This document shows positions 3,894 through 7,851 of a stretch of DNA of 64,000 nucleotides, one piece after another. Positions within the stretch are counted from its first letter, which is position 1; each line of letters starts with the position of its first letter. The notes under the pieces were generated by a model. That model was not told where the DNA came from. It saw only the letters and a list, made by a program, of their open reading frames with translations, and did no database searches. Origin of the DNA: a virus; the IMG/VR virus record IMGVR_UViG_3300035670_000026, positions 1-64,000 of that record. One strand, written 5' to 3'. The translations under genes were made by a program, and so were the position numbers.

Positions 3894-3980
3894 TACCGCC
3901 TTGGTGAAATAGGTAGACACGAGGGACTTAAAATCCCTTGGGCAGTGATGCTCGTGCCGGTTCGATTCCGGCAGGCGGTA
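3894..3980 (+). tRNA. tRNA-Leu(TAA)
   Basis: Acceptor TACCGCC/GGCGGTA pairs fully. Anticodon stem AGGGA/TCCCT holds loop CTTAAAA (anticodon TAA). It has the long variable arm of leucine tRNAs and a normal T-arm with GGTTCGATTCC. CCA is not encoded. Confidence 0.95.
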
Positions 3981-4773: not shown

Positions 4774-5031
4774 ATGAATGAAGTTACAGTTACAGTACTG
4801 CCACATCCAGTGACAATGTTCTTTATAGGAGCAATGCTATTAGGTATAGTTTTACTGTTAATCGAATTTTCCAAAACCCGTCGTGAGGTTCGGGAAACTA
4901 AAAAAGAATTTAATACTATGAATAAACATATCATTGATGTTAAATCCTACACAGAAAAATCAATTCAAGAAGTTTCTCGTAAAGTAGATTCAAGAATCGA
5001 CAAAGCGCTTGGAAATTTAAAAAAAGATTGA
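4774..5031 (+). CDS. Small membrane protein with coiled-coil tail
   Basis: 85 residues: a short N-terminal segment, one transmembrane helix (about residues 13-30, VTMFFIGAMLLGIVLLLI), then a charged helical tail with heptad-like spacing. The topology suggests an inner-membrane anchor with a cytoplasmic coiled coil. It sits between tRNA-Ser and a lipoprotein gene, an odd place for a protein gene and often where phages keep host-interaction genes. Function unknown. Confidence 0.65.
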   Translation: MNEVTVTVLPHPVTMFFIGAMLLGIVLLLIEFSKTRREVRETKKEFNTMNKHIIDVKSYTEKSIQEVSRKVDSRIDKALGNLKKD

Positions 5032-5068: not shown

Positions 5069-5230
5069 ATGAAAAAAACCTTTTTCGCACTTGTAGCAAT
5101 TGCTACCCTTGCTTCATGTACTAATAATACCGAAGCCACTTTAACTGATTCAACTTCGTGTGATACATGTGTTGTTGATTCAACTGTAGTTGATACGCTA
5201 TGTGTTGACACTACAGTAGTAGCCGAGTAA
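5069..5230 (+). CDS. Small phage lipoprotein
   Basis: 53 residues: MKK, a hydrophobic stretch (FFALVAIATLA), then the lipobox LASC with the cysteine at about residue 17, so a lipidated secreted protein is predicted. The mature part is about 37 residues, rich in Thr, Val and Asp, with near-repeats VDST/VDTL/VDTT and a C-x-x-C pair. Phage lipoproteins of this size often act in superinfection exclusion at the envelope; that is an inference only. It is preceded by a late-type motif and followed directly by tRNA-Thr. Confidence 0.8.
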   Translation: MKKTFFALVAIATLASCTNNTEATLTDSTSCDTCVVDSTVVDTLCVDTTVVAE

Positions 5231-5520: not shown

Positions 5521-5553
5521 CTTGGATGTTTGAAATTTCGTTCGTATATTTAC
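5521..5553 (+). promoter_or_regulatory. Bacteroidetes-type promoter of the large RNA
   Basis: CTTGG at 5521-5525, 19-nt spacer, TATATTTAC at 5545. It is followed by a boxA-like element and then the long structured non-coding region. Confidence 0.75.
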
Positions 5554-5577: not shown

Positions 5578-5589
5578 GTTCTTTAAATT
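5578..5589 (+). promoter_or_regulatory. boxA-like element
   Basis: GTTCTTTAAATT directly before the first helix of the large RNA. Confidence 0.5.
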
Positions 5590-5594
5590 ATTGA

Positions 5595-6475
5595 AATATC
5601 CATTCAACGCAAGTTGATAAAAGATATTGGCCGTCTATGGTCGTTAAATAAACCTCGAAAGGGGGATAAAGTGAATTACATGACAAAGTAGTTTGCGGCT
5701 TCGAAAGGAGCTCGAGTAGACAAGCGAGATATCATTTAGTCTAAAGTAGTGAGGGTAACTCCGTAGCGAAACGATTGAATGACCTAGCGATGTGGGTCGT
5801 TAGGTTGAGTCCGGAAGGACAATAAGAATAACTCGTAGAATATATGTAAGAAGTATTTCCATCCAGATTTACAATTGCGTTATTCAATATCAGAGGGTAC
5901 TTAAAGCCGAAAGGCATGTAAATGTACAGGTGGTGCTGTTATTTACCTTGACCTTAGTCTACCAAGACATGAGTCATGAAGTAATCTTAAAGTATGGAGG
6001 TAGGGATATCTCAGAGAGTAGTTTAGTATTTTCTCGCTCAAAAGGTGAGAAAGCTAGGTTGGTAAGCCACTACTTTCAATCATCCACGTCAAAAACTTTG
6101 CTATTTGGAATGCAAATTCAAAACTAACAAAGCAAAAGTGCTTACCAGTCACGGACGAAAGATGCCTACATAGTAGTGAGTTGTTCACTGCCACTAGAGG
6201 TTGCAAGCCAATAGTGATTCGTTTGAAAAATTTGTAACCTCGGCAGGGGTTTATCAGACCGCAAGTTTGAACAGATAGAGTATAGCGAGAGTAGTCCAAT
6301 ACAAGTGACTTAAAGAGTGGTTCACTTAAATAACCGGCATTGTTAGGATACAAGTCAAAAGCTTGTGGATAAGAAGGGAATAAATAATCCGACAAAAGAT
6401 CTAACATATAAACGTATAATCTCAGCGTTTTAAAAATTTACGCAAGTTGGACATTTTAGAGGATCGTTTCCTCTA
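5595..6475 (+). ncRNA. Large ornate structured RNA (GOLLD/ROOL-like candidate)
   Basis: About 880 nt with no convincing gene on either strand and dense base-pairing. Examples: AATATC (5595) with GATATT (5623) enclosing TCAAC-GCAA-GTTGA; CCTC-GAAA-GGGG (5653); GCTTC-GAAA-GGAGC (5698); CCTAGCGA with TCGTTAGG; GTCC-GGAA-GGAC; GAATAAC (5826) with GTTATTC (5879); GCC-GAAA-GGC (5906); GAGGTTGCAA (6197) with TTGTAACCTC (6232); AAGTGA (6303) with TCACTT (6322); ACAAG/CTTGT (6350-6366); and a final TAGAGGA/TCCTCTA hairpin (6457-6475). Size, GNRA loops, own promoter and location in a phage tRNA island match the known GOLLD and ROOL RNA classes. Membership is inferred, and a new class is possible. Confidence 0.7.
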
Positions 6476-6499
6476 TTGCGACAAAAATAAAATTTAACA

Positions 6500-6620: not shown

Positions 6621-6652
6621 TGTGAAAATAAAAAACACTATGAAAAACAAAG

Positions 6653-6681
6653 CCCGGCCCTAAAAAGCCGGGTTTTTTTTT
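6653..6681 (+). terminator. Rho-independent terminator
   Basis: CCCGGC (6653-6658), 8-nt loop, GCCGGG (6667-6672), followed by nine T. It ends the large-RNA transcription unit just before a boxA-like element and tRNA-Lys. Confidence 0.9.
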
Positions 6682-7398: not shown

Positions 7399-7851
7399 AT
7401 GCAATTCAAGACTCTCCGAAACAGAAAAGACATTGATCTGGTTGAATACGTTCGGGACTACATCAATGAAAATCCACAAGTTGAAATCCTTATAGGATGC
7501 GACTCACAAAACCATATAGACACTACAGTATATGCTACAGTGGTTGCTCTATACAAACCACAAGCTGGTGCCCATGTTCTTTTCTGTAAAGAGGTTACTC
7601 AAACAGAAAAAGTTCGTCAAGTTAGATTGATGAATGAAGTTTGGAAATCAATTGAAGTTGCCGAATTACTAAAAAATTCAGGTTTACCAAGAGCAAAATA
7701 TATCGATATTGACCTTAACCCAGATAAAAGATTTAAATCAAATGAAGTTCTAAGAGCAGCAGTTGGTTTAGTTGAAGGAATGGGTTACAGCGTTAGATAT
7801 AAATCATTAGGTGCATTAGTAACTACAGCGGCTGATGCATTGGTAAAATAA
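7399..7851 (+). CDS. DUF458 (YkuK-like) RNase H-fold protein
   Basis: 150 residues. The segment ILIGCDSQNH (about 31-40), a mid-protein RLMNEVWKSIEVAELL helix and IDIDLNPDKRFKSNEVLRAAVG match DUF458/YkuK, a family predicted to have an RNase H-like (RuvC-type) fold. Candidate acidic residues are Asp in GCDS, Glu in MNEVW and Asp in DIDLNP. The family's role is uncertain; processing or cleavage of structured nucleic acid is plausible. Notably it sits alone inside the tRNA and structured-RNA island, a suggestive but unproven location for an RNA-processing nuclease. It has its own late-type motif. Confidence 0.78.
   Translation: MQFKTLRNRKDIDLVEYVRDYINENPQVEILIGCDSQNHIDTTVYATVVALYKPQAGAHVLFCKEVTQTEKVRQVRLMNEVWKSIEVAELLKNSGLPRAKYIDIDLNPDKRFKSNEVLRAAVGLVEGMGYSVRYKSLGALVTTAADALVK

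Follow-up and report, generated by a model that had tools for sequence, protein, structure and literature searches.

The question raised by this locus is which RNA is specified by a long stretch of viral DNA that lies in a tRNA island and has no plausible gene, and what such an RNA might do during infection. The initial annotation placed a large structured non-coding RNA at positions 5595-6475 of the window (the whole stretch of 64,000 nt analysed here), named GOLLD as the first candidate family, and allowed for a divergent member or a new class. The tRNA island itself was recovered with ARAGORN: 26 tRNAs lie between positions 3895 and 9439, without exception on the + strand.

We scanned the window with all 4227 Rfam families. 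The sole non-tRNA match was GOLLD (RF02032) at 6014-6428 (+), which covered the full model, positions 1-416, with 273.9 bits (E 4.8e-77) against a gathering score of 150 bits. ROOL, the other family whose model had been proposed as a check, stayed below its own Rfam threshold in the window. The first candidate family was thus the right one, and we conclude that 5596-6432 (+) is a structured GOLLD RNA of about 840 nt and of the two-domain kind. The size of the RNA and its tRNA-island context are shared with ROOL, which is likewise a large phage RNA linked to tRNAs and forms a cage in published work, and the 5′ half of our RNA lies outside the Rfam model. These points could favour membership of ROOL or of a new large RNA class; but ROOL differs in sequence and fold, and GOLLD alone passed its cut-off, with its model matched from end to end, so that we regard such an assignment as almost certainly wrong. 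The same match excludes a new class. The word "divergent" holds for the 5′ half only, which is absent from the Rfam model and yet common to a large group of relatives.

No evidence for protein coding was obtained. The longest open reading frame within the RNA has 65 aa in the sense direction and 117 aa in the antisense direction, and antisense stop-free runs in the relatives have a median of 76 aa as compared with 72 aa in shuffled sequences. Since these runs are no longer than expected by chance, a coding explanation was ruled out, as the annotation had proposed. The RNA folds with an energy of -234.5 kcal/mol, a value that none of 20 shuffled sequences reached (z = -4.3); a folding energy no better than that of shuffled sequence had been named beforehand as an argument against the RNA.

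To collect relatives, viral contigs were scanned with two patterns, located in the 3′ and the 5′ half respectively, and an HMM search followed. This yielded 146 full-length relatives with 62-93% identity to the window RNA, 100 of which are less than 93% identical to each other. The alignment comprised 98 of these 100, without the long RNA L097 and the short RNA L052. The consensus fold consists of 210 pairs in 41 helices. Standard pairs occupy 95.2% of cells, compared with 75.4% after shuffling and 39-43% when one strand was slid; the slid-strand comparison is partly favoured because the structure was drawn from the same alignment, and the stronger evidence is the count of two-sided changes, which were found in 168 of the 210 pairs with contributions from both halves of the RNA. 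On each of five measures, none of 500 shuffles scored as high. Covariation in homologues, also named in advance as a check, and the many strong helices of the annotation are thereby borne out. The same applies to its GNRA loops: the GAAA loop at 5657-5660 is conserved in 98/98 sequences and the GGAA loop at 5813-5816 in 97/98.

Conservation sets the ends of the RNA at about 5596 and 6432 (+), so the coordinates of the annotation were correct as to the structured stretch and not as to its ends. Its last hairpin, at about 6441-6480 (+), in which CGCAA...UUGCG encloses UAGAGGA/UCCUCUA, is lineage-specific and was kept only in the closest relatives (L033, L016, L034, L086 and L002). The conserved block is divided into a 5′ domain (5596-6013), which lies outside the Rfam model and contains consensus helices 2-23 (columns 83-657), and a 3′ domain (6014-6428), which corresponds to the model and contains helices 24-41; nearly all helices of both domains show two-sided changes. 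The most variable part of the RNA is an A-rich linker inside the 3′ region (6088-6131), which is 31-58 nt long in relatives with about 49% A and 77% A+T. Some other GOLLDs carry a tRNA in the linker, whereas here the linker is short and without one, and a search for tRNAs inside the RNA predicted none in any of the 146 relatives. ACGCAAGTTG, a 10-mer close to the 5′ end of the RNA (5606-5615), recurs just past its 3′ end at 6441-6450 (both +). Two of the relatives are longer, with 1026 nt (L097:2398-3423) and 914 nt (L172:2093-3006), mainly owing to a longer 5′-domain stretch at the place of window positions 5696-5710.

Rfam models only the 3′ half of GOLLD, whereas the 146 relatives define a 5′ domain as well; the full 416-position model, the tRNA-island setting and the conserved 3′ domain are common to both. 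GOLLDs beyond the 146, including Mycobacterium loci, share only the 3′ domain with the window RNA, save for copies cut by contig ends, and the 5′ half of the window group had no counterpart in the mycobacterial and other GOLLDs compared. GOLLD has likewise been described as consisting of a conserved 3′ region and a variable 5′ region (PMC12286853). Mycobacterial GOLLD (L091-L093; PMC6582537) resembles ours in that its 3′ domain passes the Rfam cut-off and it lies within a tRNA cluster; it differs in having no match to the 5′ half of the window group and no boxA with the motifs tried. Among sequenced genomes the Mycobacterium loci were the only pattern matches that proved to be real GOLLD. Those in the Bacteroidota and other genomes searched (Sphingobacterium, Algoriphagus, Balneolaceae and Desulfurobacterium) arose by chance and contained no Rfam GOLLD, and plasmids searched for this RNA gave no match. 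Two huge phages (642 and 635 kb) carry GOLLD as well.

Contacts beyond the consensus helices were sought by a covariation scan with background correction; the contacts retained all scored higher than any of 1000 shuffles, and pairing was complete (98/98 rows) or nearly so for each. The GUG of a hairpin loop in the 5′ domain (5792-5794) pairs with the CAC just before the linker in the 3′ domain (6085-6087). All three pairs are formed in 98/98 sequences with 53 two-sided changes, and 0/1000 shuffles were as high. As judged from covariation, this contact links the two domains, either within one chain or between chains. The GC of AAAGCAAAA at 6132-6133, which is J13/15 by position, pairs with nucleotides 6203-6204 of the P20 loop (98/98 paired; GC 92/UA 6 and CG 58/GC 36/AU 4; 0/1000 shuffles). 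By position this is the L20-J13/15 contact, which forms the intermolecular bridge B7 in the solved cage (PMC12286853), and its putative between-chain nature is taken from that work. A pseudoknot between AUGCC (6162-6166) and GGCAU (6336-6340) is paired in 99.8% of cells with 109 two-sided changes. Nucleotide 6370 also covaries with 6419, a pair whose position corresponds to a contact of loop L27, the last one.

Two further hairpins correspond by position to bridges formed by the L21 loops. L21a (6237-6250, bridge B8) has the loop GGCA with a self-complementary GC at 6243-6244. The centre of this loop is self-complementary (GC, CG, AU or GU) in 97/97 scorable relatives, even though the GC and UCGA types switch, and this matches the requirement of the published self-kissing bridge B8. 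L21b (6255-6269, bridge B9) has the loop CGCAA; GC is kept there in nearly all rows and hence leaves no covariation by which to judge self-pairing. The loop types of L21a and L21b are exchanged in the window RNA and its close relatives L033 and L016 with respect to sister RNAs such as L086 and L002. The two types tend to change together: on the 3′-domain tree they did so in 3/5 independent pairs and never in the opposite sense (p 0.25), and on the 5′-domain tree in 6.3/8 independent pairs (median p 0.03). Avoidance of matching types has exceptions in L031, which has the same type in both loops, and in L064. Given the few independent events and these exceptions, we treat the avoidance as a lead; the pattern provides a testable rule for cage assembly.

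The GOLLDs with solved structures are hollow cages. A close precedent is env-38 GOLLD, an RNA of 833 nt (PMC12286853, PMC12248019) solved by cryo-EM as a 14-mer that forms a closed hollow multimer (PMC12286853); bridges B1, B6 and B10 of GOLLD are A-minor contacts. The window RNA is of nearly equal length, has a 5′ region of about 420 nt and a linker at nearly the same position, and has B7 and the self-pairing L21a loops in place; env-38 also adjoins a Met-tRNA, like many relatives of the window RNA. The two differ in that the L21a/L21b types are exchanged in the window clade relative to its own sisters, and the putative likeness of their 5′-domain types is one of length and contacts. For another GOLLD, env46 with 744 nt, the listed copy number is 6 (PMC12248019), so that 14 copies should not be assumed for the window RNA. 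The short relative L052 has 742 nt, near the length of env46.

Expression signals were analyzed upstream and downstream of the RNA. A Bacteroidota-type promoter-like element, TTTG-N12-TATATTTA, is present at 5529-5552 (+), in keeping with the host-type promoter claimed by the annotation. TAnnTTTG was found in the 80 nt preceding boxA in 70 of 110 relatives, as compared with 8.8 expected, and its usual distance from boxA is about 35 nt. The copy in the window ends in TTTA and departs from TAnnTTTG by one base, and a generic scan of the window for TTTG-N18-TAnnTTTG showed no excess over chance, so the promoter call rests on the comparison of relatives. The four copies of the promoter-like motif TTCGTATATTTAC fall within the first 5.6 kb: one belongs to the RNA (5541), and the others (311, 1981 and 3078; all +) precede protein genes.

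The boxA-like element GTTCTTTAAATTATTG lies at 5578-5593 (+), in what is probably a transcribed leader. It upholds the boxA claim of the annotation: 128/133 relatives carry a boxA-like motif in the 200 nt upstream of the RNA core, when the rate elsewhere in the same loci predicts 0.08 per 200 nt (about 8%), and the strict form GTTCTTTGA was found in 93/133 relatives against 1.15 expected. The motif GTTCTTTRA is held in common with ribosomal leaders: among Bacteroidota-related genomes it was present in all 16S leaders that could be read (7/7), and five had a further copy in the region that follows 16S; the first three genomes tried yielded no 16S. Unlike the boxA leader of Bacteroidota rrn operons, the motif here precedes a phage non-coding RNA. 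Before most other GOLLD groups boxA was not found with the motifs tried, so the element is not supported as a feature of all GOLLDs. A link between boxA and GOLLD was not found in the literature consulted: the main structure paper is silent on boxA, and PMC7567579 uses antitermination for a satellite protein unrelated to GOLLD. As a clear GOLLD, the RNA is ordinary in its identity. What exceeds the literature found is chiefly its boxA link, together with the interdomain contact and the group defined by its 5′ domain.

At the 3′ side, the terminator that was expected to follow the RNA does exist, but the clear one (a 10-pair GC-rich stem and a T run) is located farther downstream, at 6649-6676 (+). 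All 335 of the 335 tRNAs near the RNA in relatives are on the same strand as the RNA, and in 31 of the 61 relatives that have a downstream tRNA it starts 11-50 nt past the last conserved loop. This spacing suggests that RNase P may set the 3′ end of the RNA.

The record is a 149.8-kb viral contig that encodes a head protein of the T4 gp23 kind, whose nearest relatives, in Flavobacterium phages of the genus Immutovirus, are 65.5% identical to it across 75% of its length. The nearest capsid relatives and the promoter type make a Bacteroidota host likely; the source is probably a T4-like myovirus with a Flavobacterium-like host of that phylum, and the large GOLLD group to which the window RNA belongs is probably one of Bacteroidota phages.

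Overall, we consider it probable that the window RNA, the GOLLD of a T4-like phage, is started at a host promoter, is antiterminated through boxA and self-assembles into a multimeric cage. Host RNA polymerase would start at the Bacteroidota-type promoter, and the leader boxA would recruit the host rRNA antitermination factors (a leader of this type is expected to bind NusB/NusE and to resist Rho), by which a long untranslated RNA could be made fast and whole. Such rRNA-like, antiterminated transcription, suggested by the leader motif, could account for how an RNA of this kind is made in quantity. The transcript would then fold into 5′ and 3′ domains joined by the covarying loop-linker contact, and the L20-J13/15 kissing pair and the self-pairing L21 loops would connect copies to give a closed hollow multimer like that of env-38; self-assembly in this phage would follow by analogy with the solved structure. 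What the cage might do is speculative: one tentative idea is that it holds or shields something during infection, such as its own A-rich linker together with cargo (tRNAs, other cellular RNA or protein). Equally conjectural is a more general proposal, that Bacteroidota phages make cage RNAs in the manner of rRNA, a host-type boxA engaging the rRNA antitermination machinery, and that L21a/L21b constitute a recognition code at the seam whose types avoid matching and change together. If this were true, the code would let chains join in register, and the cages of different phages may not mix.

Several other explanations were considered. The boxA could be a mere part of the layout of tRNA operons and unlinked to the RNA itself, and indeed four more boxA-like sites are located just before tRNAs (3989, 5325, 6684 and 8274, all +; together with 5578, the island has 5 of the 10 matches in the window, preceding tRNA groups or the RNA). 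Nevertheless, boxA stands at a short distance before the RNA and was kept in 24/27 relatives with no tRNA within 2 kb, which makes this explanation improbable.

The RNA could also be a GOLLD by descent that functions as a monomer or in a small complex, perhaps by binding ribosomes or tRNAs, and forms the cage only in vitro. The strong tRNA linkage fits such a role, PMC12286853 mentions pull-downs in which GOLLD bound ribosomes, and an in-cell cage was not found in the literature consulted. Against it, the contacts that are intermolecular in the cage are under selection: B7 covaries and is paired throughout, and L21a stays self-complementary across type switches. Moreover, published GOLLD multimers persist at low nanomolar concentration (PMC12286853). 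On this evidence monomeric action appears unlikely, though less so than a relic or selfish passenger of tRNA islands that gives no benefit to the phage. A GOLLD is reported to accumulate in lytic growth, yet to be dispensable for phage production in one Lactobacillus brevis prophage (PMC7567579), and GOLLD is absent from the record of the Immutovirus relative. Its dispensability and this absence would agree with a passenger; they also point to an accessory role. The compensatory changes described above indicate strong structural selection over diverged RNAs, and we give the idea of a passenger little credence. The cage-forming reading can be pursued further in this group, as 146 sequences with one common 5′ domain open the intermolecular contacts to covariation and mutation tests.

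Other genes were noted in or beside the tRNA island. Those for a small membrane protein (4774-5031), a small lipoprotein-like protein (5069-5230) and an amidase (PF01510; 9671-10545), all on the + strand, are a possible lysis cluster; in phage ICP1 an abundant ncRNA of about 800 nt is also found at the lysis cluster (PMC7567579). A gene for an RNase H-like protein (PF04308) is located inside the island at 7399-7851 (+). In the phage carrying the short GOLLD, two group I intron matches were found in the tRNA island (L052:4731-5338).
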